Source of the DNA: Bacteroidaceae bacterium
GTDB taxonomy: Bacteria > Bacteroidota > Bacteroidia > Bacteroidales > Bacteroidaceae
Direction: 5' to 3'
NCBI GenBank assembly: GCA_017560945.1
Contig: JAFZDY010000028.1
Location: 1-49,181, forward strand
Length of the DNA: 49,181 bases
The notes under the pieces are model-generated. The model was not told the DNA's origin, searched no databases, and worked only from the letters and a program-made list of their open reading frames with translations. The translations under genes were made by a program, and so were the position numbers. Every line of letters begins with the position of its first letter. Positions within the stretch are counted from its first letter, which is position 1. Shown in pieces: positions 2,123 through 26,700 of the stretch.

Positions 2123-2336
2123 ACTATGGCTGTTGGCTATAGTTCAGAAGAATGCATTCTTTTTCCCGAAAGATTGCACTCTTCTGAACTGTTAATTCCA
2201 TTCGCGAACCGTGTTTGTTCCGTTCGCAAGCGGAGTTAACTCGGTTCGGGTGAATACTATATAGTGTAAGGGTGTAACGAATATAGTATTGAGGCAAAAG
2301 CTGTATAGTTTTAGACTATGGCTGTTTAATATACGT
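2123..2336. repeat. 22-base-periodic degenerate palindromic array A
   Basis: About nine units of exactly 22 bases can be laid out from 2123. They fall into groups sharing a word: 2145 and 2167 (AGAATGCATTCT-like), 2189, 2211 and 2233 (GTTAATTCCRTTCGC-like), and 2255, 2277 and 2299 (ATATAGT at unit positions 5-11 in all three). Units are often palindromic, and neighbouring units pair with each other, for example 2141-2156 with 2175-2190. Similar words recur in arrays at 13802 and 17328. Confidence 0.7.
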
Positions 2337-2398
2337 GAAAGATAAGGATGTTAAGCGTTGAAGATTTGAATCTTTCTGGCTTAACATCCTTATCTTTC
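2337..2398. terminator. Long inverted repeat, likely terminator of the glsA-glsB transcript
   Basis: A perfect 20-bp inverted repeat (2337-2356 with 2379-2398, 22-base loop) lies between the convergent genes. It sits just beyond the fossil glsB end at 2421, which suggests it terminated the ancestral glsB transcript. No strong T-tract follows on either strand. Confidence 0.6.
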
Positions 2399-2420
2399 GG
2401 GTGTATCGTATATAGTATGC

Positions 2421-2489
2421 TTATAGTTCTAACTTCAGTTTATCGGTTCCATGCTTGAACTCCAATATCTCGGGATGTTGCTTTGCGGC
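2421..2489 (-). pseudogene. Fossil duplicate of the glsB 3' end
   Basis: Read on the minus strand from 2489, this encodes AAKQHPEILEFKHGTDKLKL and ends EL-stop at 2421. The intact glsB upstream ends FAKQHPEVLEFKHGAGGILK I-stop. Eleven of the first 13 residues match, but the remnant is out of frame with glsB and lies after its stop. The simplest reading is that a second glsB allele replaced most of the gene by recombination and left the original tail behind. Confidence 0.75.
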
Positions 2490-2502
2490 AGATGGGGGAC
2501 TA

Positions 2503-3483
2503 TTATATTTTCAGAATTCCCCCTGCTCCATGTTTAAATTCTAATACTTCAGGATGTTGCTTGGCAAAGGAGTCCATATGACGGATTCTCTTTTCTTCCA
2601 ATATTTCGTCGACGGCAATCAATATTCCTGTTTCTTCTACATTCCCGAATTCGTAATTGATGCCTGTGCCAAATACACGCATAGTGGGAGATAAACTCAT
2701 GTACGCATTTACCAATGGGGGAATGTTACATCCCAAGTTGCGTACTTCACGATTTAGAATGCGATAGTCCTGTTTGAATTCACTCTCAGTGAAGATCGCC
2801 TCTAATTCTTTGGGATCAGTCTCCAACAAAAGAGGTTCTGTGGGAACCACCAATTTGTCTTTGTCTCCGAAATGCTTGTTTAGGAAATAGAGAATCATGT
2901 CACGTCCGAGTCTGTTGAACGAGGGGTACATGGTCATTTTCCCAAAGAAATATTTTACGTCTGGCTTCAATACGGTGAGTGCACCTAATCCGTCCCACAA
3001 GTTGTCTAAGGCAAAAATTCCTTTAGCATCTGAACGGGTAGATTGGTATTCCAATGTTACAAACGAACGCCCCAATTCAATCGTCTGAGGAAGAAATTCA
3101 GTAAGGAATTGCTGTGAGAAATTGAACATGTGTGCTGTGGCTAATATAGGATGTCCATGCTCGTCCATGCGTACATCAGTTCCCAATATGTAACGATATC
3201 CACCGATAATCTCTTCTGACTCGGGATTCCATACAATCAATTGGCGATAGGGATTCTCCATGGTATCGTATTCGTCGATATCCATAGAAAGACCTGTACC
3301 TCCACCACCTGCGCGGAAAGCTATTTCGCGCAGACGTCCGATTTCTTTCATTACGTTTGGCGCATTGTGTGCTGTGACGATGTAAATATCGTTGTTGCTC
3401 TTGTTTGTGCGACGTAATTTTTTGTCTTCTGTCAGTTCCGATTTTAAAATCTCTTTACTGATTGGGGCAATTATTTCTTCCAT
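2503..3483 (-). CDS. glsB: GNAT-type N-acyltransferase, glycine lipid synthesis (GlsB-like)
   Basis: A 326-residue protein of the OlsB/hemolysin-like GNAT acyltransferase family. In Bacteroides thetaiotaomicron the corresponding enzyme, GlsB, transfers a 3-hydroxy fatty acyl chain to the amino group of glycine, the first step to glycine lipids. Visible features are the Gly-rich RAGGGGTGLSMD segment (about residues 58-69), then EYDT, IIGGYRYILG and the conserved ELGRSFV block. The start ATG at 3483 overlaps the stop of the upstream acyltransferase gene by one base (TAATG), so the two are translationally coupled. The C-terminus (HGAGGILKI) differs from the fossil tail found just downstream, which suggests the 3' end was replaced. 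It is a cytoplasmic or membrane-peripheral enzyme. Confidence 0.85.
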   Translation of the reverse strand: MEEIIAPISKEILKSELTEDKKLRRTNKSNNDIYIVTAHNAPNVMKEIGRLREIAFRAGGGGTGLSMDIDEYDTMENPYRQLIVWNPESEEIIGGYRYILGTDVRMDEHGHPILATAHMFNFSQQFLTEFLPQTIELGRSFVTLEYQSTRSDAKGIFALDNLWDGLGALTVLKPDVKYFFGKMTMYPSFNRLGRDMILYFLNKHFGDKDKLVVPTEPLLLETDPKELEAIFTESEFKQDYRILNREVRNLGCNIPPLVNAYMSLSPTMRVFGTGINYEFGNVEETGILIAVDEILEEKRIRHMDSFAKQHPEVLEFKHGAGGILKI

Positions 3484-4382
3484 TATTTATTGTTAGAATT
3501 TTCCTTTAATTTGTAAACTGTCTCTTTTACATCCTCTGCCCATTCGGTTGGGGATTTAGACTTGTCGAATGTTTGCCATGGGATAGGCTTTCCTATGGTA
3601 ATGCGGAATGTTTCATGACGATTCTTGAACATCTCATCAGCAAGATAGAGCATAGCAATGTTTAGTTTGATGCCCAATCTTTTACACCAGTTGGCCAATG
3701 AGTAAAAGAAGTCAGAGTTGCGGCCTTCAAAGTGGATGGGGACAATGTCTCGTTGTGTTTGTACACTTTTTATAATAAACGTCTTTTTCCAATCTAAGTC
3801 TCGAATGACACCATCCGAACCTCGACGTGAACAAAGTCCTGCAGGAAACATGATAATGTGATCGTCCGAGCGGAATGCTGCTTCTACCATTTTGGGAAAA
3901 TCACGAGATTGTGAACCTGTTTTATTGATAGGGACAAAGAGAGGGGCAAGGCCATAAAGGTTCATCAATAGATCGTTTACTAAGTATTTGATCTTTCCTT
4001 CGTACTTCTTGCCTAAAATGTATCCGATTGAGATACCGTCTAAACCTCCTAATGGGTGGTTGCTCACAAATGTATAAAGTCGCCCATCGGTCGGAAGGTT
4101 TTCCAATCCTTCCACCTCCAACTTGGTGTCGAGGTACTCAAGTGTAGATTCTAAGAATGGTACACCGCGTTTTTCCTTTACACTGAGCAAGTACTCATTG
4201 ATCTCGTCTTGATGAACAATCTTCTTTAGGTACGAGACCAAAAACTTTGGCACATATTTCGCTTTTTTACCAGCCTTTGATGCCAAAATCTTATCTATGT
4301 CGATGAGGAAAAATGAGTCTTCAGCCATAGGTCTATTGTTAATAATGGGCAAAAATAATGTTTCTTTTTTATTTTTGGACAT
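3483..4382 (-). CDS. glsA: Lysophospholipid-type O-acyltransferase (GlsA-like)
   Basis: A 299-residue PlsC/LPLAT-family acyltransferase. The catalytic block reads NHPLGGLDG (His about 109, Asp about 115), so the His and Asp are separated by five residues rather than the usual four; this variant is typical of the hemolysin-like subgroup. Substrate-binding blocks MFPAGLCSRRG and IVPIHFEGRNS follow. In Bacteroides, GlsA adds the second acyl chain to the hydroxy fatty acid of N-acylglycine. It is the first gene of a two-gene minus-strand operon, with a TAATG overlap into glsB. The downstream partner and order support the assignment; alone it could be a phospholipid acyltransferase. Confidence 0.8.
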   Translation of the reverse strand: MSKNKKETLFLPIINNRPMAEDSFFLIDIDKILASKAGKKAKYVPKFLVSYLKKIVHQDEINEYLLSVKEKRGVPFLESTLEYLDTKLEVEGLENLPTDGRLYTFVSNHPLGGLDGISIGYILGKKYEGKIKYLVNDLLMNLYGLAPLFVPINKTGSQSRDFPKMVEAAFRSDDHIIMFPAGLCSRRGSDGVIRDLDWKKTFIIKSVQTQRDIVPIHFEGRNSDFFYSLANWCKRLGIKLNIAMLYLADEMFKNRHETFRITIGKPIPWQTFDKSKSPTEWAEDVKETVYKLKENSNNK

Positions 4383-4454
4383 TATTTTCCGAAAAAAAGG
4401 ACATTTATTGCCCTTTTAGGACAATTTAAACGTCCAATGAATAGTGATTGTAGG

Positions 4455-5138
4455 TCATTTTCGTCCAAAATCGGCAGGAACTTCTCCCCATCGAGAGGTA
4501 TCCCATTTTAGGATAGGAGTGGTGTATTTATTCTCCTTTAACCACTTTTCTGCACGTTCTATCAGTTGGTATAGCTCTTCTGTGCGAGGTGTCCTTTCCA
4601 GTTTAGTCTTGCATTTTTTTTGTTTAACCCAAAGAATCGCGTTACGGCTATCGGAATAGATGGGCATATTTACTCCCTTTTGTTTCATTAGGGCCAATGC
4701 GTGGACGATGGCAAGGAATTCTCCGATGTTGTTTGTGCCATGTACAGGACCAAAGTGGAAAACCACTTGACCTGTGCGTAAATATACGCCTCTATACTCC
4801 ATAGGACCAGGGTTCCCACTACAAGCTGCATCTACTGCCAGAGACTCGGCTTGCACTTCCAAAGGAAGGGGTAGTACTGTGTCTGTGCGGTCGGTAGGTG
4901 GTGTCACCACTTGAGAGCCATTCATTGCGACCTTTGAATTGTCCCCTGCATTCTTCTTCGCACGCGTTATATATATATAAGGTGAGGAATTATAAGCCTC
5001 CTCTGCCTCCTCGCGGGTGGAAAAAGACTTGTATATGGCTCCTTCGAAACCATTGATTTGTTGCTTGCAAGCATCCCAATCGGTATAAATCCCAGGCTCC
5101 ACCCCGTGCCACACGACATAGTATTTGTTCTTGGCCAT
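4455..5138 (-). CDS. rnhA: Ribonuclease HI with viroplasmin-type N-terminal domain
   Basis: A 227-residue enzyme that cuts the RNA strand of RNA-DNA hybrids. The N-terminal 50 residues (KYYVVWHGVEPGIYTDWDAC) form the caulimovirus viroplasmin/RNase H1 hybrid-binding fold, common in Bacteroidetes. A variable linker leads to the RNase H domain: VDAACSGNPGP (first Asp), NNIGEFLAI (Glu), IYSDSRNAI (Asp) and a final Asp near the end (VPADFGRK). These provide the acidic metal-binding residues. I chose the start at 5138 (MAKNKYY) rather than an in-frame ATG seven codons earlier because the domain begins immediately after it. Confidence 0.9.
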   Translation of the reverse strand: MAKNKYYVVWHGVEPGIYTDWDACKQQINGFEGAIYKSFSTREEAEEAYNSSPYIYITRAKKNAGDNSKVAMNGSQVVTPPTDRTDTVLPLPLEVQAESLAVDAACSGNPGPMEYRGVYLRTGQVVFHFGPVHGTNNIGEFLAIVHALALMKQKGVNMPIYSDSRNAILWVKQKKCKTKLERTPRTEELYQLIERAEKWLKENKYTTPILKWDTSRWGEVPADFGRK

Positions 5139-5218
5139 AGGTATATATAATAGACCCAATCCCGACCTTTCTTAAAGGGAGTGGAGTAGAGTGTATAGTC
5201 AATGAAGAAGTTGACTTT

Positions 5219-5257
5219 CTACTCCCCTCCCTTTTGGAGGGGTAGGGGGAGGGTCTG
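5219..5257. repeat. GC-skewed palindromic repeat (CTACTCCCCTCC...GGAGGG), copy 1
   Basis: A CTACTCCCCTCC arm, a short spacer, then GGAGGGG and GGGGGAGGGTC. Two further copies lie at 43372-43412 (opposite orientation) and 43472-43510, the latter inside a coding region. Here it sits between argS and rnhA. Confidence 0.75.
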
Positions 5258-5267
5258 TTTGTTTACA

Positions 5268-7085
5268 TTACATGCGTTCGGGGACTTCGATGCCCAACAA
5301 TCCCATGCCAAGACGCACAATCTTGGCTACATTGTGTGAGAGGGCAAGACGGAAGGTCTTGAGTGCCTCGTTCTCTTCGCGCAAGATGCTGAAGTCGTGA
5401 TAGAATTGGTTGTACTCCTTTACGAGCTCGTAGCAATAGTTGGCAATGCCAGAGGGGCTATAGGTAGTACCTGCTTCCTTTACTACGGCGGCAAAGTCGG
5501 CCAACATTTGGATGAGACCCTCTTCCTTTTCGCTCAAGGCAAAACCTGTAGGCAAAGTGGTGGGGATTTCAATTCCAGCCTCCTTGGCCTTACGAAGTAC
5601 CGATTGGATACGTGCATAAGTGTATTGGATGAAGGGGCCTGTGTTACCATTGAAGTCGATAGATTCCTTCGGATTGAAAGTCATGTTTTTACGAGCATCC
5701 ACCTTGAGGATGAAATACTTGAGCGCTCCCAATCCTACGATGCGAGCGATGTTGTCGGCTTCTTCTTGGGTAAGTCCGTCCAACTTGCCAAGTTCTTGAC
5801 TTGTCTCCTTGGCAGTGTTTATCATTTCTGCCATCAAGTCATCTGCATCCACTACTGTTCCTTCGCGGCTTTTCATCTTACCTTCGGGCAACTCCACCAT
5901 GCCGTATGAGAAGTGTACGAGGCCCTTACCCCACTCGAATCCGAGTTTGTCGAGCAGGATGGAGAGTACTTGGAAGTGATAGTTCTGCTCATTACCCACC
6001 ACATAGATCATCTTGTCGATGGGGAAGTCGGCAAAGCGAAGTTTGGCAGTACCTATGTCTTGGGTCATATAAACTGAAGTGCCATCGGCGCGAAGCAAAA
6101 GTTTGTGGTCGAGTCCTTCGCCAGTGAGGTCTGCCCACACGGATCCGTCCTCCTTACGATAGAAGAATTTTTTCTCCAATCCTTCCATAACTTTTTCCTT
6201 ACCTTCCAAATATGTATCCGACTCATAGTAGATTTTGTCGAAGGTAACACCCATCATCTTGTAGGTCTCATCGAATCCTGCGTATACCCAGTCGTTCATC
6301 TTCTTCCAGAGGGCACGTACTTCGGGATCGTTGGCTTCCCATTTTACCAACATCTCGCGAGCCTCCTTCATCAGAGGACTTTCTGCTTCAGCTTTGGCCT
6401 TGGCTTCTTCCTCGCTCATACCTTGGGCGGTGTACTGAGCCATCAGCTCCTTCACTTCGGCTTTGTAGTGTTTGTCAAAGGCTACGTAGTAGTCACCAAT
6501 CAGGTGGTCACCCTTCTTGCCCGATGACTCGGGAGTTTCGCCTTCGCCATACTTGAGCCAAGCCAACATGCTCTTACAGATATGAATACCACGGTCGTTC
6601 ACGATGTTGGTCTTCACCACGCGGTTACCATTGGCCGCTACGATGTTGGCCAATGCGTTACCCAACAAGTTGTTACGTACGTGTCCGAGATGGAGGGGCT
6701 TGTTGGTGTTGGGTGATGAATATTCAATCATTACCAAGGGAGAGGTCTCGGTAGCAGCGGTCAATCCATATGTTTCCGATGTATGTATTTCATTCAGAAG
6801 GTCAATCCAACAATCTGAAGAGATGGTAAGATTGAGGAATCCCTTGATTACATTAAAAGCGGCTACCGCCGAACAGTTGGCTTGTAGATACTCACCTATT
6901 TCGGTGGCAGTCTGCTCAGGACCTTTGCGCGACATTTTCAAGAAGGGGAATACTACAAGGGTGAGGTGCCCCTCAAACTCTTTCTTCGTTTTCTGCAACT
7001 GTACCTGTGCGGCCGTTGCATCTTGTCCGTAAAGACTCTTGATTCCGTCAATTACGGAAGAAACAATCTTTTCTTCGATAGTCAT
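5268..7085 (-). CDS. argS: Arginyl-tRNA synthetase
   Basis: A 605-residue class I synthetase that charges tRNA-Arg. The N-terminal additional domain is at about 1-110. The Rossmann fold follows, with HIGH-type motif HLGH at about 132-135 (NKPLHLGHVRNN). The KMSK equivalent is EGKMKSREGT. The C-terminal anticodon-binding domain ends LLGIEVPERM, as in most ArgS proteins. Length is normal. A TTTG/TAnnTTTG promoter at 7136-7167 lies inside the terminator of the upstream HU gene (see findings). Downstream is a GC-skewed palindromic repeat, so rnhA is probably transcribed separately or by read-through. Confidence 0.97.
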   Translation of the reverse strand: MTIEEKIVSSVIDGIKSLYGQDATAAQVQLQKTKKEFEGHLTLVVFPFLKMSRKGPEQTATEIGEYLQANCSAVAAFNVIKGFLNLTISSDCWIDLLNEIHTSETYGLTAATETSPLVMIEYSSPNTNKPLHLGHVRNNLLGNALANIVAANGNRVVKTNIVNDRGIHICKSMLAWLKYGEGETPESSGKKGDHLIGDYYVAFDKHYKAEVKELMAQYTAQGMSEEEAKAKAEAESPLMKEAREMLVKWEANDPEVRALWKKMNDWVYAGFDETYKMMGVTFDKIYYESDTYLEGKEKVMEGLEKKFFYRKEDGSVWADLTGEGLDHKLLLRADGTSVYMTQDIGTAKLRFADFPIDKMIYVVGNEQNYHFQVLSILLDKLGFEWGKGLVHFSYGMVELPEGKMKSREGTVVDADDLMAEMINTAKETSQELGKLDGLTQEEADNIARIVGLGALKYFILKVDARKNMTFNPKESIDFNGNTGPFIQYTYARIQSVLRKAKEAGIEIPTTLPTGFALSEKEEGLIQMLADFAAVVKEAGTTYSPSGIANYCYELVKEYNQFYHDFSILREENEALKTFRLALSHNVAKIVRLGMGLLGIEVPERM

Positions 7086-7135
7086 TTCTTTATATCTATT
7101 TTTGTTCGTTTATTGCTAAGTTTGTAAATGAGTTA

Positions 7136-7167
7136 CAAAAGTACTGAAAAAAAAAGAGATGCACAAA
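7136..7167 (-). promoter_or_regulatory. argS promoter
   Basis: On the minus strand, TTTG (7164-7167), 20 bases, then TACTTTTG (7136-7143). The TTTG falls in the loop of the HU terminator hairpin. Confidence 0.65.
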
Positions 7168-7184
7168 CTATGCATCTCTTTTTT
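7151..7184 (-). terminator. HU gene terminator
   Basis: A hairpin with 13-bp arms (AAAAAGAGATGCA, 7151-7163, with 7171-7183), followed on the minus strand by a run of T. It lies 24 bases past the HU stop. Confidence 0.85.
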
Positions 7185-7207
7185 AACCTTATAAGGCAAA
7201 TCTCTTC

Positions 7208-7480
7208 TTATAATACTGCTTCAGCCAATTCTGCACCGGGCTTGAATTTAGCAACCTTCTTGGCAGCGATAGTGATAGTTTCCTTAGTAGCGGGGTTGAT
7301 ACCAGTTCTTTCACCTCTTTCAGAAACCATGAAAGTTCCGAAACCTACAAGGGCAACCTTGTCACCTTCCTTCAATGCTTCAGTGATAGAAGCTACAACA
7401 GCATCAATGGCTTTTTTTGAATCTGCTTTGCTCAAGCCTGACTTTTCGGCTACGGCGTTGATAAGTTCTGCTTTGTTCAT
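7208..7480 (-). CDS. HU-family DNA-binding protein
   Basis: A 90-residue nucleoid protein of normal HU length. N-terminal helices read MNKAELINAVAEKSGLSKAD. The core is VALVGFGTFMVSERGERTG, and the DNA-binding arm carries the INPATKETITIAAKKVAKFKPG signature. It binds DNA as a dimer and bends it. It is monocistronic: a near-perfect promoter lies at 7541-7571 and a strong terminator at 7151-7184. Bacteroidales carry several HU paralogues, so I give no gene symbol. Confidence 0.95.
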   Translation of the reverse strand: MNKAELINAVAEKSGLSKADSKKAIDAVVASITEALKEGDKVALVGFGTFMVSERGERTGINPATKETITIAAKKVAKFKPGAELAEAVL

Positions 7481-9470: not shown

Positions 9471-9473
9471 CGT

Positions 9474-13769: not shown

Positions 13770-13801
13770 ATTGACAATACGAAAGAATTCAATCTTCCAG
13801 T

Positions 13802-13948
13802 CAGAAGAATGCCATTCTTTTGTACATAAGATTACTAATCTTCAAAGCCGAAGGTGCAGAGTTTTATAGTCAACTTGTGGACTTTCATAGTCAAGCTATG
13901 GAGTTTTAAAGTCCAGACGTAGAGTTTCATACTCAATCATGTGGCTCT
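13802..13948. repeat. 21-base-periodic degenerate palindromic array B
   Basis: Seven consecutive 21-base units can be laid out from 13802, directly upstream of the porin gene. Four units end in GACTTT, GAGTTT or a close variant and start TATAGTC, CATAGTC, AAAGTCC or CATACTC (13859-13943). The first two units contain the palindromes AAGAATGCCATTCTT and AAGATTACTAATCTT. The AGAATGC/ATTCT word is shared with array A at 2146. Confidence 0.7.
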
Positions 13949-13985: not shown

Positions 13986-15023
13986 ATGAAGAAAATTTTT
14001 TCTATGGCCCTGTTGGCCATGATGTGTGGAGTTGGTCAGGTGGCCAAGGCTCAACTCCCTAAGTTGGATGATACCCCTATTACTGCTAAGTTTGGTGGTT
14101 ATGTGGTAGGAGACTATTCTTATTACACCAATGAGGACGTGAATAAGACAGCAGGTTTCAACCTTCGTTATGCTCGTGTCTATGTGAATGGCACTGTGGC
14201 AAAAGATTTCAAGTATCGCCTTCAGGCAGAGATGGCCGGTGCACCTGGTGTAGATAAAGGTCCCCGTGTGATTGATGCCTATACCGAGTGGGTGAAATAT
14301 CCGTGGCTCAATGTCCGTTTCGGACAGATGAAGCGTGTCTTCACATTTGAGAACCCCTATAATCCCTGGACAGTAGGATTCGGTTCCAATGCACAAGTTA
14401 TCAGTAAATTGGCAGGTATGAATGACCGTTGTGGCGAACATGCAAGCGGTGGTCGTGATTTGGGCCTCGTATTCCAAGGTGACGTGTTGCCTTTTGGACA
14501 GGATGAACATCGCCTTTTGCATTATCAGGTAGGTGTTTATAACGGACAAGGAATCAATCACAAGGATGCCAATAGCAGCAAAGACCTCATTGGTGGTCTT
14601 TGGTTCAGTCCCTTCAAGGAGTTGCAGATTGGTGCTTTCGGATGGGCAGGTGAATATACCGGTAACAATATGACCGTCGACCGTAACCGTATGGCTTATG
14701 GCGTGAAGTACGAAGCCGATTGGACCGTACGTGCTGAATATATTACTTCAAAAGGTAAGAGCGTTAGCAACACCAATCTGGGTGACGAAGCAGATGGTTG
14801 GTATGCCGCTGTAGGTGCCCCTGTAGGCGATCAGCTTAAAATCTATGGTAAGTGGGATGTATATCGCAATGAGAAGACCTCTGAAACCCAGAAGAGCATC
14901 TATGGCTTGAGTCTTAACTACTGGCTCGACAAGAACCTTCTATTCCAGGCAGGTTACAATTACATCGACGACTGTGGTGTTGACTACAGCCAGTTGCAGA
15001 TGCAGGTATATGTAAGATTCTAA
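13986..15023 (+). CDS. Outer-membrane porin (OprP/phosphate-selective porin type)
   Basis: A 345-residue outer-membrane beta-barrel. The signal peptide (about residues 1-23, ending VAKAQ) is followed by alternating amphipathic strands. FGGYVVGDYSYY, NLRYARVYVNGTVAKDFKYR and WLNVRFGQMKRVFTFENP are typical of the porin O/P family. It ends LQMQVYVRF, with a terminal Phe suited to BAM assembly. Family members form trimeric channels; the substrate here is unknown. The gene is flanked on both sides by 21-22-base-periodic arrays, and I find no consensus -7 box upstream, so array B may contain or replace the promoter. Confidence 0.85.
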   Translation: MKKIFSMALLAMMCGVGQVAKAQLPKLDDTPITAKFGGYVVGDYSYYTNEDVNKTAGFNLRYARVYVNGTVAKDFKYRLQAEMAGAPGVDKGPRVIDAYTEWVKYPWLNVRFGQMKRVFTFENPYNPWTVGFGSNAQVISKLAGMNDRCGEHASGGRDLGLVFQGDVLPFGQDEHRLLHYQVGVYNGQGINHKDANSSKDLIGGLWFSPFKELQIGAFGWAGEYTGNNMTVDRNRMAYGVKYEADWTVRAEYITSKGKSVSNTNLGDEADGWYAAVGAPVGDQLKIYGKWDVYRNEKTSETQKSIYGLSLNYWLDKNLLFQAGYNYIDDCGVDYSQLQMQVYVRF

Positions 15024-15108
15024 AGTATCTTACGTTCAAAGATAAAGTATCTTATATATAAAGCCCATTTATCTTAAGATACTTTGTCTTTGAAACTAAG
15101 TTTATAAA
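15021..15108. repeat. 22-base-periodic array C downstream of porin
   Basis: Units start at 15021, 15043 and 15065, each with ATCTTA at unit positions 7-12; the first two share TAAAGTATCTTA. A weaker fourth unit follows. Units also pair: 15036-15053 with 15076-15093 (17 of 18 bases). Confidence 0.65.
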
Positions 15109-15109: not shown

Positions 15110-15153
15110 AGGCGCGGATCCATCGCAATGCACATTGTGATAGATCCGCGCCT
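15110..15153 (-). terminator. gyrB terminator (convergent with porin)
   Basis: A 44-base hairpin that is nearly all stem: AGGCGCGGATC pairs with GATCCGCGCCT, and the inner ATCGCAATG with CATTGTGAT. On the minus strand it is followed by five T. Confidence 0.85.
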
Positions 15154-15177: not shown

Positions 15178-17313
<2,136 letters not shown>

Positions 17314-17327
17314 TCACTGTTCTATAC

Positions 17328-17393
17328 AATTAACTCCGTTCGCGAACCTAGTTAATACGGTAGACGAACGGAGTTAATTGTATTGGGGATGGA
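17328..17393. repeat. 22-base-periodic array D
   Basis: Three 22-base units start at 17328, 17350 and 17372, each with A(A/G)TTAA at the start; the first two have GAAC at positions 17-20. The outer units also pair, forming a stem of about 18 bp (CAATTAACTCCGTTCG with CGAACGGAGTTAATTG). The TTAACTCCGTTCGCGAAC word closely matches array A at 2191-2240. Two perfect small palindromes lie beside it (17288-17302 and 17305-17319). Confidence 0.65.
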
Positions 17394-19851: not shown

Positions 19852-19860
19852 CCCCCCCCC
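19852..19860. repeat. C9 homopolymer tract in promoter region
   Basis: Nine C (G on the coding strand of the downstream gene), about 26-34 bases upstream of the -7 box. Long homopolymers in this position are candidates for slipped-strand length variation. Confidence 0.6.
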
Positions 19861-19934
19861 ATTTTAATATATATTAACATTAGGCGAGCGAGTAGTAATT
19901 GTTCAGCGTTAAAGCATGTGCTCTATTTGGAAAA

Positions 19935-20014
19935 AGTACACAGAGACAAAGAGATGAGATATTTGCCTTTGGAAAAGAGGAAAAACTCTGTGTGTCTCCG
20001 TGTCTCTGTGTACT
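19935..20014. terminator. Imperfect inverted repeat downstream of xylanase gene
   Basis: Arms AGTACACAGAGACAAAGAG (19935-19953) and CTCCGTGTCTCTGTGTACT (19996-20014) match at 16 of 19 positions around a 42-base loop. It follows the xylanase stop (20047, minus) and could terminate its transcript. The sequence style is that of a dispersed intergenic repeat. Confidence 0.5.
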
Positions 20015-20046
20015 AATTAAATAATTTCGCAGAATGGTTGCTGATA

Positions 20047-22377
20047 TTATTTCACTACTTTCTTTCCGTTTACGATGTAGATGCCTGCAGGCAGGTCGGC
20101 GAGGTTGGTGTGCTCGGGCAAACGTACGCCTGTGATGGTGTAGATGCCGCTGAATTTGTGTACTTTGTCGGCGACTGTTTCATCGCAGGGTACATCCTCA
20201 ATGCTAGCTATGTTTACGCCACCAAGACCTTCTGCAATACCTGCATAGGCATGTTTGCGGTAATAGTCGAGTGTCCAGATGCCTACAGGGGTGTCCGCAC
20301 GCCATCCGCTGTTACTGGGCGCGTCGGTCGGACACCAGAAGCAGATGCCTGCCTGTTGAGCGGGAGGAACGATTTCCAGGTACTTCTTCACAATCCATTC
20401 GTAGAAGTCAGCCATCTTGTGGTGCATTGCTTCGGTCATATTGGCGGTCGATACACTGTTGCCGTTGGCGTCGTTGTATCCCATGTCCAATTCGCTGACG
20501 CGCACGAGTTTGCCTGTGTTTGCCATGAGCTTGAACATGTTCACGATGGCGTTCTCCTTACTCTTCTGGGTAGAGGCGTTTGCGTAGTACGAGATGTGCA
20601 TCTGAGTACCTATTCCGTCCACGTAGGTGACGCCGTCAGCTTCCCACTTCTTAATCCAGTTGATGAGCGATTTTAATTTCTTGTTGCCGTCCCAGTCGCT
20701 CTCGAGGTTGTAGTCGTTGATAAAGAGCTTGATGTCTTCGGGGCCGTATTTGCGTGCCGAGCGGATGGCGCTACGTACATATTCGAGGTCGCCCATGTGG
20801 TCTTGCCAGAAGAAGTCGTTCGAGCCGTTGGCATGCTGAAGGGTGTAGTTTCCGCTACCGTCGTCGCCACCGCCAGAGATAGCTTCGTTTACCACATCCC
20901 ACGATTTCACTTTGCCGTCGCAAGCCTCCATCATGCCTTTGATCCATTTGTCCATGGCCCACACGAGGGTATCACGCTTCTGTTGGGCAGAGAGGGGAGT
21001 GCTTTGGGGAAGTTGGATGTAGAAGGCCTCCTCCTTGATGGTGGGTGCTACAGTGCTTCCGCCCAACTTTCTCATCTTGAAGGTGCTCAGGTCGGTGCCG
21101 TCGAAGTTGCCGTTCTTCATCTTTTCCACACCATTTACCTTGAAACTTACGTTGTCGAAATAGTAGGTGTTGGCGTCTGCCAATTCGCTGAGGTTGAAGG
21201 CAATGGATTGACCTGCAGCAGCCAATGTGCCACTCACTTTTACGGTCTTCCACTCGGTGGTAAATTGGATGTCGCCAATGGCCTGATAATCTACGTAACT
21301 GCCTGGTGAATTATGAATTTGGGTGGATGCCTTTGCGCTCTTGTCGGCACGCACGTCGGCGCTGAATTCATATTTGGCTCCTTTGGCAAAGGTGCTGGGG
21401 CTGACAATCCAGAATTGGTTGTCCCATACGTCCGCTGACTTGGCAGCGGCTTCTACGCTGATATAGCGGCGAGGCTCTTTCACTATCATAGCGCCTACTG
21501 ATTCTTCTACCTTGATGCTCTTGATGTAGAGGTCGCCCACGAAGTCGCCGCATTGCAACAATAGGAAGCTGCCGGCTATGGCGTTCTTGTATGTCAGTAC
21601 AATGTCCTTCCATTCGGTCGAGAAGGTGGTGTTTACATTTACACCGCTACCCCAGTCACCCAGTTTGGTGTAGAGGTTTCCTTTGCTGCTACCCTTTGCG
21701 GTGATGGTTAGTTTGTATGTTTTTCCCTTTTCTGTGGGGATGCCGTCCAAGGCTATGAACTGTACCTCCCACGAGTTGTTTTTCTTGGTGGTTTTCAGAT
21801 GTAGTCCGTCGGTTGACGAGTAGTCGATGCTGAATCCGTACTGTGCCTTGTCAGCTGTCCATCCTACACTCTGCTGGGTGCGGAAGTCCTTTGACTTCAA
21901 TTCTACATATACCAGTGTGTCGGGGTTCTCAAAAGGTTCTGCAGGAATGTCCTTTATCAGGCTGTTGAGCCATGTGGTAGGTTGTTGTGAGTGCCAGGCG
22001 AGTGTGTGACCATACACGGCGAGTCCTGCTTTGGTGGCAGCATTCACGTAGTTCTTCACCTGGGTAAAGTTCATGCTACCGTCGTTGCCTACGCAGCTTG
22101 ACATCTTCATGGCGTTGCCGGCAACGGTCTCGGTGAAGTTGTCGTTGGTGAATCCCTTTACGGTAGAGTTGTTCAGGTAGTCGTTTACCGTAGTACCGAT
22201 ACCTAATTTAAAGTTGGGGTACTTCTCGTGGTCGATGTAGTCTTTCAGTGGAGCATAATCCTTCAAGTAGCCGTAGTTGGCTTCGTCGTTGGGATTTCCC
22301 ATTTCGTACTTATTTTGTGCAAAGGTGGTGATTGCCACCAATAAGATCATTGCGGAAAGAATGCTTCTCTTGTGCAT
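20047..22377 (-). CDS. GH10 endo-1,4-beta-xylanase with inserted carbohydrate-binding modules
   Basis: A 776-residue secreted xylanase cutting beta-1,4-xylan backbones. Signal peptide about 1-20. The GH10 barrel starts at about 25-140 (LGIGTTVND, YGHTLAWHSQQP), is interrupted by about 300 residues of two beta-sandwich modules of CBM4/9-22 type (SWEVQF..., YYFDNVSFKVNG), and resumes at about 450. The acid/base Glu is in WDVVNEAISG (about 498) and the nucleophile Glu in RVSELDMGYN (about 629). The inserted-module layout is known from Prevotella and Bacteroides xylanases. The last 35 residues (IYTITGVRLPEH...GIYIVNGKK) look like a type IX secretion C-terminal domain. Start at 22377 (MHKRSIL) because the -7 box lies at 22411-22418. 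Confidence 0.93.
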   Translation of the reverse strand: MHKRSILSAMILLVAITTFAQNKYEMGNPNDEANYGYLKDYAPLKDYIDHEKYPNFKLGIGTTVNDYLNNSTVKGFTNDNFTETVAGNAMKMSSCVGNDGSMNFTQVKNYVNAATKAGLAVYGHTLAWHSQQPTTWLNSLIKDIPAEPFENPDTLVYVELKSKDFRTQQSVGWTADKAQYGFSIDYSSTDGLHLKTTKKNNSWEVQFIALDGIPTEKGKTYKLTITAKGSSKGNLYTKLGDWGSGVNVNTTFSTEWKDIVLTYKNAIAGSFLLLQCGDFVGDLYIKSIKVEESVGAMIVKEPRRYISVEAAAKSADVWDNQFWIVSPSTFAKGAKYEFSADVRADKSAKASTQIHNSPGSYVDYQAIGDIQFTTEWKTVKVSGTLAAAGQSIAFNLSELADANTYYFDNVSFKVNGVEKMKNGNFDGTDLSTFKMRKLGGSTVAPTIKEEAFYIQLPQSTPLSAQQKRDTLVWAMDKWIKGMMEACDGKVKSWDVVNEAISGGGDDGSGNYTLQHANGSNDFFWQDHMGDLEYVRSAIRSARKYGPEDIKLFINDYNLESDWDGNKKLKSLINWIKKWEADGVTYVDGIGTQMHISYYANASTQKSKENAIVNMFKLMANTGKLVRVSELDMGYNDANGNSVSTANMTEAMHHKMADFYEWIVKKYLEIVPPAQQAGICFWCPTDAPSNSGWRADTPVGIWTLDYYRKHAYAGIAEGLGGVNIASIEDVPCDETVADKVHKFSGIYTITGVRLPEHTNLADLPAGIYIVNGKKVVK

Positions 22378-22410
22378 GGTTGTAAGTTTTATTTTTAGTA
22401 TATTACGCAG

Positions 22411-22418
22411 CAAAGGTA
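22411..22418 (-). promoter_or_regulatory. Xylanase gene promoter (-7 box)
   Basis: TACCTTTG on the minus strand, 33 bases before the ATG at 22377. It overlaps an upstream in-frame ATG (22413), which argues against that longer start. Confidence 0.6.
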
Positions 22419-22531
22419 ATTCTTTTTTGTGAAAAATAAGGGTTTAAGTTGCTGTTTTCTGAAAACATGGGTTAGAAAAGTGGGTAATGCTAACGGCAGA
22501 CCGCGTAGATGGGTGAAGGTTATGGCCTATC

Positions 22532-23869
22532 TCATTCAATGTCCAAGATTATGCGTCGGTAGCTTGTCAAGGCGGGAGTACCGTCATCTGTGACACGGAG
22601 AATCAGGTGGATGGTGCATCCGTCAGCATCGGTTGGGATTCTCAGTTTCAGTTTGCTTCCGGTCTCAATGAAGGTTAGCTTCCCCTTGTAGTTTCCCGCT
22701 TCCTGATAGTGGAGCCATTGGTACGAGAGTTGGTCGTTGTCGGGGTCTGATGATCGGCTTGCATCTATCTCTACGAGTTTTCCCGCTTTGGTTTTTTTGT
22801 AGATGGCTTTTGTGGATTTGTCTTTTCCGATGACGGCACGGGGGTGATGGTTGGCTGATCCATATTCACTGGTGACGCTCCATCTCATGCGAGCTTCAAA
22901 ATCATTGAATATCTCCTGTTGCCACATGCGAATAGCGTCGGCTCCCTCCGGTGTGCTTCCTGTCATCAGGTACGGGTCGTATTTTGTCTCATCCAATCCG
23001 CTTCTGGGGACCCAATCCATAGAGCGGATACCCTCTTTCCTTTCCAAGTCGAAGCGTCCGCCCCATCCGCCCCAATTAAGGTGCTCTGGGGTGTTCAACC
23101 CGTTGTCCGCCAAGTAAAGGAACGAAGGACTGTCTCCCTCCGTAGCCCATTTCCTGTCGGGATATTCTTTCCCAAGTGGCCCTACGGATTGTATATGTTC
23201 GCGTGTCCACTCGTCGTCCGGTGCCCATCCATAGACGGCCTTGTTTCGGATGTAGATGAGTTCGGGAAATTGAGTGACCATCCATGCTCCGGCGTCATCC
23301 TGTCCTAGAATGTCGTAAACGCGAATTTTACTGATGAACTTTTCAACCTCTTCCGCCGAACGTGTGTGTTGCACTTTCCACAGGGCTTGTGCCAATGTGT
23401 TCATGCCTGACCAAGCAGCTATCCATATGGGGCGAGGATCGTCTTTGTCCACTACCTGTATAATCCATTCTGAACCAGGAGAGTCTTTCCCTTCACCGAC
23501 GCCGGACATGGCTGCTTCCTTCTGCCCGTGCATTACTAATTTCCGCAATGTCTGGATGTCAGGATAACGGTCGCTGTGGACAAGCAAGTTGGGAAGGACT
23601 TGCTCATAGGCGTCAAGCGCCTTTTCCGTGACCGTCACTTCGTTCCCTTTGTTGAAACTGACCCACGCGTGTTGGTAAATGAATCCTTCTAAGTCGATAC
23701 AGTCAAGCATTGTCAGCAGGTGTATCAATGATTGCTGGTCATCGGGGTCGCTTCCGCCGATATCTGTTGTCACGATAGTTCGTACTCGGTCGCTTTTCAC
23801 GGGCAAAGTTGTGAAAAGGAGGATTGAAAACAGTAGAAACGATTTCCAGAGATGCATTTTTCTCATCAT
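22532..23869 (-). CDS. Sde182/DUF1593 nucleoside-hydrolase-like secreted protein
   Basis: A 445-residue exported protein. Signal peptide about 1-26 (FLLFSILLFTTLPVKS). The N-terminal domain starts RVRTIVTTDIGGSDPDDQQS, an Asp-rich block like the calcium site of nucleoside hydrolases, and continues WIAAWSGMNTLAQAL and YDILGQDDAGAW. From about residue 355 a beta-sandwich domain follows (VEIDASRSSDPDNDQLSYQW). This is the Sde182-type family (formerly DUF1593), first noted in plant-polysaccharide degraders; its reaction is not established. The gene lies upstream of the xylanase gene on the same strand, 155 bases apart, and divergent from an AraC regulator, so it probably acts in glycan use. Confidence 0.8.
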   Translation of the reverse strand: MMRKMHLWKSFLLFSILLFTTLPVKSDRVRTIVTTDIGGSDPDDQQSLIHLLTMLDCIDLEGFIYQHAWVSFNKGNEVTVTEKALDAYEQVLPNLLVHSDRYPDIQTLRKLVMHGQKEAAMSGVGEGKDSPGSEWIIQVVDKDDPRPIWIAAWSGMNTLAQALWKVQHTRSAEEVEKFISKIRVYDILGQDDAGAWMVTQFPELIYIRNKAVYGWAPDDEWTREHIQSVGPLGKEYPDRKWATEGDSPSFLYLADNGLNTPEHLNWGGWGGRFDLERKEGIRSMDWVPRSGLDETKYDPYLMTGSTPEGADAIRMWQQEIFNDFEARMRWSVTSEYGSANHHPRAVIGKDKSTKAIYKKTKAGKLVEIDASRSSDPDNDQLSYQWLHYQEAGNYKGKLTFIETGSKLKLRIPTDADGCTIHLILRVTDDGTPALTSYRRIILDIE

Positions 23870-23906
23870 TTTTTGGTATTTTGTTGGTTAATAGAATAAT
23901 TTTGTG

Positions 23907-23914
23907 CAAATTTA
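23907..23914 (-). promoter_or_regulatory. -7 box for the Sde182-like gene
   Basis: TAAATTTG on the minus strand, 37 bases before the ATG, in the 87-base divergent gap shared with the AraC gene. Confidence 0.5.
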
Positions 23915-23956
23915 CCCCCGTTTTCAGTATTAATATGCCTGTTTCTTTGGTAAAAT

Positions 23957-24805
23957 ATGCGAAATCCCGAGATTTTGAAGACATTCAATGCGCGTCGTTC
24001 AGAGTTTGAACCTTATGGTCTTACGTGTGAATTGTGGCAAACGGATATAATGCCTCGATTTGATTGTCACAATGAAATAGAGTTGAACTATTTTCCCGTT
24101 GGTGGAGTCACTTATTTCCTTCGTGACCACCGTGTGACCATTCCTCCCCGATGTCTTGCCCTCTTTTGGGGGCTGATACCTCATCAGATTGTACATTTCA
24201 GCGAACCTTCGTCGTACTATGTTTGTACCATTCCTTTGTCCATGTTCCTCGGTTGGGGGTTGCCCGATAACTTTATTTCCCGTGTACTCAAGGGAGAGTT
24301 ATTGGTCGACGAAGAGCATGAGCGTTTTGCCGATTATGATCACTTGTTGATGGAGAATTGGCATTCGGATTGCCTTTCTTCCGACCCCAACAAACTCACG
24401 GTGCAGTTGGAGATGCAGAGCCGTCTGCTGCGAATGTCCGCCCACACGGTGACAGGGTTGAAAACCATATCATCCGTGCCTGTAGGCGAGGCTGTCCAGA
24501 TAGAGCGGATGGCCTTGTTTATAGCACAAAATTATTCACGCTCCATCAGGTTGTCAGACATAGGGAAGTATGTGGGATTGCATCCCGACTATGCGAACGC
24601 TCTATTTAAGAAAGCGTTCGGGCACACCCTGAATGCTCATTTGATAATGGAGCGCATTACACAAGCCCGATGCCTGTTGTTGACTACGGATATTCCTATA
24701 GTACAGGTTGCCTATGATTGCGGCTTCAATTCTATCAGTAGCTTTAATAGTGCATTCTTGAAGTTCAACGGTTGTACTCCGCGTGACTATCGGAAGCGCT
24801 TTTGA
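23957..24805 (+). CDS. AraC-family transcriptional regulator
   Basis: A 282-residue regulator. The N-terminal cupin-like sensing domain (about 1-150; HNEIELNYFPVGGVTYFLRD, FWGLIPHQIV) precedes a C-terminal double helix-turn-helix (about 185-282). The first HTH is RLSDIGKYVGLHPDYANALF, and the second is IVQVAYDCGFNSISSFNSAF followed by FLKFNGCTPRDYRKRF, a full AraC signature. It is divergent from the Sde182-like gene with an 87-base gap, so that gene and perhaps the xylanase gene are likely targets. The ligand is unknown; glycan-derived sugars are plausible. ATG 23957 fits the family's N-terminus. Confidence 0.9.
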   Translation: MRNPEILKTFNARRSEFEPYGLTCELWQTDIMPRFDCHNEIELNYFPVGGVTYFLRDHRVTIPPRCLALFWGLIPHQIVHFSEPSSYYVCTIPLSMFLGWGLPDNFISRVLKGELLVDEEHERFADYDHLLMENWHSDCLSSDPNKLTVQLEMQSRLLRMSAHTVTGLKTISSVPVGEAVQIERMALFIAQNYSRSIRLSDIGKYVGLHPDYANALFKKAFGHTLNAHLIMERITQARCLLLTTDIPIVQVAYDCGFNSISSFNSAFLKFNGCTPRDYRKRF

Positions 24806-24847
24806 GGGGGTGAATCTAACGTGTAGTGTATATACATACAAAAATAT

Positions 24848-24876
24848 AGGCCACACCTTCATGGAAGGTATGGCCT
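24848..24876. terminator. Bidirectional terminator, araC-type gene / rpsT
   Basis: Stem AGGCCACACCTT with AAGGTATGGCCT (one G-U pair), five-base loop, T-rich on both sides. It lies between convergent genes. Confidence 0.8.
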
Positions 24877-24914
24877 TTCTTGAACCACTTCTGTGGGATT
24901 CTTTCAACTTACTA

Positions 24915-25169
24915 TTAAGCGAGCTTGCTGATGTGAGCAGACAACTTAGACTTCAAGTTTGCAGCCTTGTTCTTGTGGATAAGGTTTGTCTTTGCCAACT
25001 TGTCCAACATCTTCTGTACTTTGGGATACAATGCTACAGCTTCTGCCTTGTCGTGAGTAGCACGCAACTTGCGAACAGCGTTACGCATTGTCTTGCCGTA
25101 GTATCTGTTGTGGAGTCTTCTCTTCTCCTCTTGTCTGATTCTCTTGATTGATGATTTATGATTTGCCAT
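24915..25169 (-). CDS. rpsT: 30S ribosomal protein S20
   Basis: An 84-residue basic helical protein of normal length that binds 16S rRNA in the small subunit. It starts [22 protein letters not shown] and ends [10 protein letters not shown], typical of S20. A tRNA-Glu gene lies 50 bases upstream on the same strand. One full promoter (25343-25373) precedes both, so they are probably co-transcribed. Confidence 0.96.
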
Positions 25170-25218
25170 CTCGACTAATCTCTTAAAATTTTATTCCTTA
25201 AAAAATCTTATTACTTAG

Positions 25219-25290
25219 TAGCCCGTAGGAGAGTCGAACTCCTCTTTAGAGAATGAAAATCTCTCGTCCTAACCGATAGACGAACGGGCC
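25219..25290 (-). tRNA. tRNA-Glu (TTC)
   Basis: A cloverleaf of 72 bases on the minus strand. The acceptor GGCCCGT pairs with ACGGGCT (first pair G-U), and the anticodon stem is GAGAGA around TTTTCAT, giving anticodon TTC. The T-loop TTCGACT is present. CCA is not encoded. Confidence 0.95.
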
Positions 25291-25342
25291 ATCCTTGAAC
25301 CACTTTCGCGGTGCTCATGAGCTTTATTTCTCATTTGCGGTG

Positions 25343-25373
25343 CAAAGGTACGGCGTTTTTCTGAATCCACAAA
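25343..25373 (-). promoter_or_regulatory. Promoter of tRNA-Glu and rpsT
   Basis: On the minus strand, TTTG (25370-25373), 19 bases, then TACCTTTG (25343-25350). Confidence 0.8.
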
Positions 25374-25532
25374 ACTTTTCAGAAACTTTTTTGCGATATT
25401 TTTTGTGGTATTTTTGTGTTATAGTATTTATATGTTTGATATATAGTGTTTTATAGGTTTTATTAATTTTTCTCTCCAGACGAAGATTTTAAGTATAATC
25501 TTCCTTTTCTTGCATTTTTACGATAAAACTTG

Positions 25533-25540
25533 TAGTTTTG
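25533..25540 (+). promoter_or_regulatory. recO promoter (-7 box)
   Basis: TAGTTTTG, 28 bases before the recO ATG at 25569. Confidence 0.55.
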
Positions 25541-25568
25541 CCGAAAATAAAATCTCGCCAATATAGTT

Positions 25569-26297
25569 ATGCAGGAAAAGGTTGCCGCGGTCGTGCTTCA
25601 TAGTGTCAGGTACAACGATTCTTCGTACATTGTAAATGTGTATACCGAATCCGTTGGACGCTCGTCCTATATATTAAAAGTATCGCGCGCGCGTAACGCC
25701 AGTGTTCGTCACTCTCTTTTTCATCCCCTTGCCCTGCTCGAGTTGGAGACCGAGGGGAAAAATACCGCCCAACTTCGTCGTATCACCGAAACTCGCCTGC
25801 TTTATCCTCTTCACTCTCTGCCGATGGATCCCTGCAAGTCGGCCATCGCCCTTTTTCTTGGCGAATTTCTTCACCATGCGCTTCGCGAGGAGGAGGTCAA
25901 TCGTCCGCTCTTTGCCTACCTCGTTCACTCCATCCGTTGGCTCGACGAGTGCGAGGGCTATGCAGTGGCCAATTTTCACCTGGTGTTTCTCATGCGTCTG
26001 CTCCGCTTCTTAGGAATCTATCCCAATGTGGACGACTACACCCACGGTGACTATTTCGACCTGCTTGGTGCCTGCTTCTGTGCCCGTCCTCCCCAACATG
26101 GTCATTATCTTCGCCCCAACGAAGCAGAGTTCATCCCTCGCCTCATGCGCATGAACTTTGCCACCATGCACCTTTTTTCTTTCAACCGTCAGCAACGTGT
26201 CCGTTGCCTGGAGGTGCTCAACGACTATTATCGTCTTCACATTCCCTCCTTCCCTCAAGTACGTTCATTAGAGGTGCTGAAGGAATTGTTTGATTAA
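25569..26297 (+). CDS. recO: DNA repair protein RecO
   Basis: A 242-residue recombination mediator that helps load RecA onto single-stranded DNA with RecR. The N-terminal OB fold reads AVVLHSVRYNDSSYIVNVYTESVGRSSYILKV. The helical C-terminal part has the FLGEFLHHAL and LVFLMRLLRFLGIYP blocks. Length is normal for Bacteroidetes, where the zinc-binding cysteines are often missing, as here. The order rpsT - tRNA-Glu - recO is common in Bacteroidales. The gene has its own -7 box. Confidence 0.92.
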   Translation: MQEKVAAVVLHSVRYNDSSYIVNVYTESVGRSSYILKVSRARNASVRHSLFHPLALLELETEGKNTAQLRRITETRLLYPLHSLPMDPCKSAIALFLGEFLHHALREEEVNRPLFAYLVHSIRWLDECEGYAVANFHLVFLMRLLRFLGIYPNVDDYTHGDYFDLLGACFCARPPQHGHYLRPNEAEFIPRLMRMNFATMHLFSFNRQQRVRCLEVLNDYYRLHIPSFPQVRSLEVLKELFD

Positions 26298-26549
26298 GAG
26301 AACTTAATGAATAAATGTTCATGTACCTTGTCATTCATTATTCACGAATGATACAGACCTATTATACCCTATCAGGTATAAAATTGAATATCTCCCAGAT
26401 TTTATAGGAAATGTAAACTGATTTAGGGCAGAAAAACAAGACGTGTAAACCTTTTCAGGGAGGATTCAGCAAAAGCATCTATTTTTTTAGTGAATGAAAC
26501 AGAATACCGTCTACTGAAATCAGGAAAAGACAAAAAATCTCAACTCTAA

Positions 26550-26700
26550 TAAATTGTATCTTAAGCCTCATCAGATAACGCTTAAGCGTAATTTGACAAC
26601 GCTTAAGAGAAAAGTTGGTAACGCTTAAGTGCTTTTATGTTTACGCTTAAGCGTTACCGAACTAACGCTTAAGTGATTTTTTTGTATACTTAACCGCTTG
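26550..26700. repeat. 21-22-base-periodic CTTAAG array E
   Basis: Six CTTAAG hexamers and one CTTAA variant have centres at about 26562, 26583, 26604, 26626, 26648, 26670 and 26690, so steps are 21, 21, 22, 22, 22 and about 20. The best copies read AACGCTTAAGCGT, a near-perfect palindrome; flanks between copies are not conserved. Confidence 0.8.

Follow-up and report, generated by a model that had tools for sequence, protein, structure and literature searches.

The subject of this analysis is a set of five intergenic arrays of short palindromes, A to E, in the genome of a Bacteroidaceae bacterium (G000; 2.35 Mb in 57 contigs, 81.8% complete). All five lie on one complete contig (C27), here called the window: the whole stretch of 49,181 nucleotides (nt) that was analysed. 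Array B occupies the gap between secDF and a porin gene, array C the convergent gap between the porin gene and gyrB, array D the gap upstream of gyrB, and array E lies downstream of recO. At 15178-17289, the product of gyrB shares 82-83% identity with its counterparts in Bacteroides sp. An322, Phocaeicola vulgatus and Mediterranea massiliensis; these are among its best named matches and place the genome in Bacteroidaceae. The components of the arrays are listed below; G numbers denote genomes.

2137..2426, no strand: array A, with AAGAATGCATTCTT at 2148-2161 and AAGATTGCACTCTT at 2170-2183, 22 apart
2191-2249: element of array A, GTTAA..TTCGCGAA
2329-2406: long hairpin of array A, with inner AAGATTTGAATCTT at 2361-2374; kept 3' of the same gene in G014 and G005
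13783..13842, no strand: array B part 1, three AAG..CTT palindromes, steps 22 and 23, spacers 8 nt
13859..13937, plus strand: array B part 2, four TTTCATAGTCAAGCTATGGA-type units, step 21
15021..15100, no strand: array C (weak), AAGTATCTTA twice, 22 apart (15023 to 15045), plus an inverted copy
17324..17383, no strand: array D, TTAACTCCG..TTCGCGAA..GTTAAT..CGGAGTTAA
26560..26673, no strand: array E, six CTTAAG cores, steps 21, 21, 22, 22 and 22
26674..26861, plus strand: conserved linker of a composite element, with TGATAATCA, ATATATAGACAC and ACTAAAAAACTTTACA, leading into the first part of a second lattice, GTTCCATAGTCCATC

Arrays A, B, D and E, and weakly C, are intergenic ladders in which palindromes of 13-16 nt and a spacer recur at a step of 21-23 nt. 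The commonest anatomy is a palindrome of 14 nt with a spacer of 8 nt; 13 + 8 = 21 and 15 + 8 = 23 occur too. In array A the steps are 22 (2148 to 2170) and 44 (2191 to 2235); in array B they are 22 and 23 (13783 to 13805 to 13828) and then 21 throughout (13865 to 13886 to 13907 to 13928). An earlier note on this DNA had described five arrays of equal step that reuse the same words. The step of 21-23 holds for A, B, D and E and weakly for C, where two copies are accompanied by a third in inverted orientation. Sharing of words is confirmed between A and B (AGAAGAATGCATTCTT at 2146, AGAAGAATGCCATTCTT at 13803) and between A and D (GTTAATTCCATTCGCGAACC from 2191, TTAACTCCGTTCGCGAACC from 17330), but C and E have words of their own, and the TATAG/CTATG words proposed as a further link between A and B are too short to carry meaning alone.

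The window was surveyed together with 381 kb of further sequence, 430 kb in all or 18% of the genome. Genes were plain longest open reading frame (ORF) calls (at least 60 or at least 110 amino acids (aa)), which means that the set includes spurious short "genes" and misses some of the intergenic regions. Heptamer arrays of TTGAACT/TTGAACC, found at 48401-48524 of the window (period 7/14; the TTGAACT arrays at 48401-48460 give lags 7, 14 and 21) and at other intergenic loci (C1, C24 and C36), are distinct from the 22-nt ladders. They were masked in the counts of regions by lag (own genome, relatives, named gyrB loci and order-level stretches) and left unmasked in base-level self-matches and banded self-alignments.

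When intergenic sequence of the genome was matched to itself, lag 22 lay 10.5 standard deviations above the mean of all lags, lag 21 5.8 and lag 44 3.5. Short lags of 5-9 were likewise high (lag 7: 9.0), which fits the separate TTGAACT heptamers; the self-match of genic sequence was dominated by the codon period. With short periods masked, 20 of the 204 regions showed lag 22, 9 showed lag 44, 6 lag 21 and 3 lag 23, compared to a mean of 0.79 for lags outside 20-23 and 42-45, and 0.44 in Markov copies. Banded self-alignment gave a score of at least 14 in 32 of 203 regions (heptamer arrays included), compared to 2 in Markov copies. Pooling three data sets, lags of 21-23 or 44 occurred in 74 of 576 gaps and control lags (25-27 and 52) in 7; genes carrying lag 22 alone numbered 16 over 1.37 Mb. 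The step is also apparent where direct repeats are not required: in G000, 18 pairs of palindrome centres were 22 or 23 apart and 12 were 44 or 46 apart (control, 0.9 per lag). Finally, in matches to AAGAATGCNATTCTT followed by AAG, with spacers of 7-9 nt permitted, the spacer was 8 nt in 11 of 11 cases from five genomes (control, 0). The refuting conditions set by the earlier note were not borne out: the spacing is kept at other loci and the arrays cluster between genes, in a pattern wider than the note described.

The suggestion that the arrays form one system holds for their geometry but not for their words, of which about a dozen with steps of 21-23 could be told apart by eye in the part of the genome surveyed. 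They include CTTAAG, AGTACTGCAGTACT, AAGAATGCCATTCTT, GTTAACTCCGTTCGCGAA, TTTCATAGTCAAGCTATGGA, CTGCCAAGGCTTTGGCAG, GTGTAGTGCCGCACTACAC, ACCAAACTATAGAGCTTTG, AAGTAAGTACTACTT, GATGGCCATC and TTTCTCAGGTAGGGGAG; one array is non-palindromic (C36:41111). Grouping by blastn neither proves nor disproves this number: it joined 70 regions into a single component, since several words coexist at composite loci and other loci are connected by heptamers. Although the arrays are concentrated between genes, the words themselves only tend to be intergenic and are not restricted to such DNA, a point for which the earlier note had asked for a test. Allowing up to two mismatches, AGAAGAATGCNATTCTT has 13 forward and 7 reverse matches in the genome (reversed pattern, 0 and 2), with some sites counted twice because the word is palindromic. 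Thirteen of these 20 matches could be placed relative to genes: 8 are intergenic, 1 is inside a long ORF, and the other 4 fall within a pair of short predicted ORFs that may be spurious (60 and 102 aa). Intergenic DNA makes up 10.5% of bases and, for two looser words, holds 9 matches to AAGAATNNNATTCTT (up to one mismatch; 10 in predicted ORFs) and 10 to TTAACTCCGTTCG (up to two mismatches; 3 in predicted ORFs).

At least two families, CTTAAG and TTAACTCC, are dispersed to many loci. Pairs of CTTAAG are found in 7 of 61 genomes, all within the genus (7/15), with 37 + 32 matches in G000 compared to none for the control, which gave one match in each of three other genomes. Array E is part of a dispersed composite element of at least 300 base pairs (bp), comprising the CTTAAG ladder, a linker of about 165 nt and, in several copies, a second ladder whose word resembles that of array B part 2; many matches stop near 26861. 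Thirteen of 20 fetched copies (10 from G000 and 3 from G012) were aligned, seven being dropped for partial match. The consensus rungs are 21, 22, 22 and 22 apart, and mean conservation is 0.992 in the five cores, 0.889 in the arms, 0.809 in the spacers and 0.825 in the linker. All 30 core columns are conserved at 0.9 or above, compared to about 79 of 154 others (p = 4e-8). In one copy (C13) whole units are absent and the register is kept. Conserved flanks of the leader and tail type were seen for this family, and none at the orthologous A, B and D loci that were read. Adjoining array E, the segment 26440-26533 looks like the end of an insertion sequence; it recurs in nine genomes of the genus, including G000, repeatedly within 150 nt of contig ends.

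Members of the second family, sought as TTAACTCCGTTCGCGAAC with up to two mismatches, occur in 8 of 15 genomes of the genus (6 + 5 matches in G000; the reversed control gave one match in each of two genomes) and at 175 places in all. Among the 150 places listed, all 69 offsets between neighbours that are below 150 nt equal 22k on the same strand or 8 + 22k on opposite strands. A 48-nt form is present in both orientations (23 and 17 of 40). Covariation in this 48-mer showed no excess across 40 copies (721 of 800 paired, shuffle 719), a test of low power because the copies were chosen by up to two mismatches in both arms.

The history of individual arrays can be followed at orthologous loci. In the gap between secDF and the porin gene, ladders are present in G012, G005, G006, G014, G002 and G007, relatives whose porins are 72-88% identical in aa sequence, but the words and unit numbers differ; read across the seven genomes, the palindrome plus about 8 nt is maintained while the words change. 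In the eight other genomes of the genus, up to 330 nt upstream of the porin gene were read and no ladder was seen; most of these genomes have different neighbours there. Upstream of gyrB a two-rung element (array D) is shared by G000 and G012, and G005 carries one exact extra 22-nt unit; in the remaining genomes synteny at the flanks is insufficient for comparison with an empty site. The array C gap of G006 contains a quite different 14+8 ladder, TGAACATATGTTCA + TTGGCCGA, and the place of array E, 3' of recO, is taken in G012 by a ladder of TTTACCACGCGTGGTAAA. Paired changes distinguish the hairpin of G000 in the array A gap, AAGATAAGGATGTTAAGC...GCTTAACATCCTTATCTT, from its counterparts in G014 and G005. 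The array A insert of G000 is flanked by copies of AACAGCCATAGT, the arrangement that a target-site duplication would leave, but a motif similar to it already stands in tandem in G014. Orthologous or sister arrays thus gain and lose whole units. One proposal of the earlier note, a non-autonomous repeat that grows in steps of 21-22 bases, is well supported by this gain and loss, by the quantised offsets and by the aligned CTTAAG copies.

Two further inverted repeats lie in the window. Between the porin gene and gyrB, at 15110-15153, is a hairpin, AGGCGCGGATC..GATCCGCGCCT, with 21-nt arms that are 90% complementary; variants in the same gap of G006 and G012 suggest that it perhaps belongs to a family of bidirectional terminators. 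At 19926-20020 there is an inverted repeat of CACAGAGACA / TGTCTCTGTG words, and one of the same kind occupies the porin/gyrB gap of G012.

A rival explanation is that the ladders are neutral minisatellites: hairpin-prone DNA duplicated by replication slippage and made palindromic by template switching, bound by nothing, with the 22-nt step a mutational habit of the lineage. Exact gain and loss of units, rapid turnover of words at orthologous loci, the presence of both direct and inverted relations within arrays and a mean fold z of -2.04 over 74 arrays are all consistent with this explanation. Against it, the CTTAAG cores are far better conserved than the spacers and linker in diverged copies, and no mechanism of slippage is known to us that would impose a single step on many different words. 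We regard a purely neutral origin as unlikely, albeit worth serious consideration; a sequence-agnostic mutational process may nonetheless lie behind families other than CTTAAG.

Beyond G000, some genomes of the genus and other Bacteroidaceae genera show the lag-22 step again, built of different words. In G009 (99% complete) lag 22 was recorded in 7 of 128 regions (other lags, 0.14), with words that include AAACAATATTGTTT and CCTAAGTATTATACTTAGG and that sometimes switch within one array while the step is unchanged; palindrome centres lie 11 apart in 8 pairs, 22 in 12, 33 in 3 and 44 in 8 (control mean, 0.21 per lag). In G008 the count is 3 of 19 regions; this genome has no match to the CTTAAG-pair or TTAACTCC patterns. 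Its ladders alternate CATATG with GCTCGCGAGC-like dyads (L067, 2579-2722; L068, 17196-17335; L069, 7767-7884). Five other genera of Bacteroidaceae gave lag 22 in 5 of 36 regions (other lags, 0.12), with the words AACTAACGTTAGTT, CGACCTAGGTCG and TTATCACGCGTGATAA. A further 80 named gyrB loci were grouped by record titles and identity, 3 remaining ungrouped. Here lag 22 was found in 9 of 225 regions from Bacteroidaceae and Prevotella-type genomes (every other lag, 4 or fewer), in 6 of 158 from other Bacteroidales (where lag 11 is higher, at 7), in 2 of 163 from other Bacteroidota and in 1 of 96 from other phyla; some of these hits are not ladder-like when read. A ladder is present in the commensal laboratory strain Phocaeicola vulgatus ATCC 8482 (nt 8102-8197 of L150). 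From the lag counts across groups we conclude that Bacteroidaceae display the trait most clearly and that it weakens beyond the family.

The arrays are tolerant in their placement and not bound to promoters. They are commonest where genes converge, in 22 of 106 gaps (convergent versus rest, p = 0.01), compared to 37 of 337 where genes are codirectional and 15 of 133 where they diverge. Within codirectional gaps, counts from the upstream stop to the downstream start are 3, 13, 16, 5 and 0, a histogram from which nothing is drawn because an array centre cannot sit near the end of a gap, which makes it partly geometry. Given the bias toward convergent gaps, operators as a general reading, which the earlier note had entertained, are not supported. 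The results neither support nor contradict a nucleoid-organising element, another of its suggestions. A more specific version, in which several dimeric regulators have gene-specific operators whose cooperative sites are spaced two turns apart by coincidence, would account for perfect palindromes at 22-bp spacing and for the retention of array B upstream of the same porin gene in seven genomes. It does not sit well with the many arrays in convergent gaps, where a promoter is not expected, or with the scattering of similar words across many loci, and we consider it improbable.

Another candidate explanation is that the arrays are RNA elements, tandem transcript hairpins acting as 3' ends, terminators or sponges. 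The hairpin potential of the arrays, their enrichment in convergent gaps and the short distance in G002 and G007 between array B and the start codon that follows it accord with RNA elements of this sort, and palindromic candidate RNAs, some of them restricted to Bacteroidetes and most predicted to be terminators, are described in the portion consulted of one report (PMC8040213), although these were not compared with the ladders. However, arrays are present in divergent gaps too, and no sense-strand advantage was found: among 37 codirectional arrays the sense strand was more stable in 15 and less stable in 22 (p = 0.08), and G-T mismatches (37) were fewer than A-C mismatches (60), so that there is no sign of G-U tolerance. 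Selection on sense-strand RNA is therefore not supported, and an RNA function appears very unlikely. Rfam matches in the window are limited to three tRNAs, which rules out a known structured RNA.

A further possibility is that the ladders are elements of the repetitive extragenic palindromic (REP) or bacterial interspersed mosaic element (BIME) type, mobilised by a REP-associated tyrosine transposase encoded in the lineage. This comparison is invited by the intergenic position of the palindromes, their mosaic arrays, high copy number and enrichment in convergent gaps, as well as by a subclass of TnpA-REP rich in Bacteroidetes and, according to the part of the source consulted, flanked by "atypical" structures with genomic copies elsewhere (PMC6006769). 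The distribution of the transposase argues otherwise. The Y1_Tnp match is good in ladder-bearing G008 (one) and weak in G023, and weak partial matches to Y1 transposases also occur in G003, G005, G012 and G014, but there is none in G000 at its 81.8% completeness or in ladder-bearing G009, G017, G019 and G022 (all 99% complete). Conversely, between one and six Y1_Tnp matches were found in each of 12 order-level genomes, out of 14 searched, whereas the order-level stretches, from partly different genomes, are without a lag-22 peak. Nor is a GTAG or CGTC foot visible by eye in the two aligned families (CTTAAG, 13 copies; TTAACTCC, 40 copies). We therefore give mobilisation of this kind little credence. 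Nor did searches give any sign of an origin from phages or plasmids: array E is unmatched in plasmid and phage records, and two words, searched exactly, are unmatched in IMG/VR.

The centres of the dyads provide some information on the form in which they are read. In even dyads the innermost pair is complementary in 0.45 of cases in arrays compared to 0.27 elsewhere, a modest difference that leans toward sites read in duplex DNA. Given this leaning, the tolerant placement and the improbability of RNA, we favour, with somewhat less than even confidence, the explanation that the ladders are mosaic intergenic repeats: several palindromic families on a common ladder of 22 (21-23) bp, non-autonomous, with rungs that are putative sites for a dimeric protein. 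Under such a model, trans-acting machinery would disperse the families, unit number would change when rungs recombine or slip against one another during replication, and each palindrome would be a putative site for a dimeric protein on double-stranded DNA. The ruler is probably set by that protein, because rungs two helical turns apart would share one face and could be bound together. Candidate readers of such dyads would include Lrp/AsnC proteins, and lox-like recombinase sites are a further possible parallel.

Several observations weigh against this explanation, the chief rival of which is the neutral minisatellite. Steps of 21, 22 and 23 vary with palindrome length, and helical phasing is therefore inexact. 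In odd dyads the innermost pair is no more often complementary in arrays than elsewhere (0.25 versus 0.24), the difference appearing at the next pair (0.47 versus 0.29). Inverted symmetry spans the whole of array A (38-nt arms, 82%), which local dimer sites leave unexplained. Core conservation was measured in the CTTAAG family alone, in 13 of the 20 fetched copies; one of these 13 (C47) has two broken cores, in three of the seven unaligned copies one rung has degenerated to CTTTAG or CTAAAG, and, unlike CTTAAG, the TTCGCGAA dyads of the TTAACTCC family are less conserved in the middle (mostly 68-90%). No clean empty site was found in the array A region of G000, G014 and G005 or at the array D flanks, and no autonomous partner was found. 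Among relatives, lag 22 was absent from the stretches sampled of G010 (0 of 41 regions) and G012 (0 of 18), the peak in palindrome centres was not seen in G008, G010 or the five-genus set, and 21 stretches from other families of the order gave lag 22 in 1 of 129 regions, with no peak.

If one ruler governs different repeats of a dominant gut lineage, then a shared protein or replication process must enforce it, which would open a new way into the chromosome organisation or the repeat mobility of the family. A bolder version, which we put forward only as a rather speculative candidate, is that Bacteroidaceae possess a DNA-binding system of the chromosome in which a family of dimeric proteins, perhaps able to form filaments, would bind dyads on an 11/22-bp ladder at many intergenic loci, with words that turn over fast between species. 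Were this so, it would amount to a binding landscape that is geometry-first and word-flexible, unlike known operators, REPs or centromeres. The ladders themselves, which differ in word and are constant in step, are a natural set of variants for testing what reads them.

Some further features of the window were noted. Positions 1-15, at the contig start, are a run of 15 C, and another run of C lies near 19853; phase variation or a stop in the assembly may explain them. Two tRNA-Val(TAC) genes of equal covariance score stand in tandem at 40188-40385. At the contig end (48931-49176) a 69-nt tandem repeat of 3.6 copies is probably coding, presumably for a leucine-rich surface protein.

In the searches made of open-licence literature, titles and abstract beginnings yielded no description of 22-bp ladders of this kind in Bacteroidaceae. 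The ladders share regular repeats and short palindromes with clustered regularly interspaced short palindromic repeat (CRISPR) arrays, but ladder repeats are degenerate and their spacers are 8 nt; with no Rfam CRISPR match in the window, CRISPR is ruled out. A closer likeness is to BrickBuilt, a minisatellite and miniature inverted-repeat transposable element (MITE) of Porphyromonas gingivalis. In the sections consulted of the report, it consists of tandem imperfect 23-nt units without spacers, intergenic and able to form stem-loops, set inside a dispersed element with a non-repetitive leader and tail and variable between strains in unit number; strain W83 has 22- and 41-nt tandem repeats as well (PMC4596501). 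The same sections describe one word in one species (and P. gulae), with terminal inverted repeats (TIRs) like those of IS5 (PMC4596501). On that description the ladders and BrickBuilt have in common the order Bacteroidales and tandem, imperfect, intergenic units of 21-23 nt in variable number, and the CTTAAG family shares in addition its dispersal with conserved leader and tail. The ladders differ from what is described there in having many words per genome, a geometry of palindrome plus 8 nt, and a lag found in several genera of another family. A search of 20 CTTAAG-element loci for three forms of the BrickBuilt/ISPg/MITE TIRs (GAGACC..TTGCA; up to two mismatches) gave one isolated weak match.

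With REPs, BIMEs and REPINs, as far as these are covered in the parts consulted of four reports, the ladders share short extragenic palindromes in many copies and mosaic clusters (PMC3733652, PMC6006769, PMC2817692, PMC3116915). Those parts report REP-type repeats and REP transposases at phylum level (PMC3733652, PMC6006769), and CGTC repeats in Bacteroidetes (PMC3733652), which were not compared with the ladders. The differences are the lack of a GTAG/CGTC foot, by eye, in two families, the lack of a detected Y1 transposase in five ladder carriers (though it is present in others), and a step of 21-23 maintained across different words. BrickBuilt and REP/BIME are thus the nearest known kinds, and a common ruler across words is among the features that set the ladders apart.

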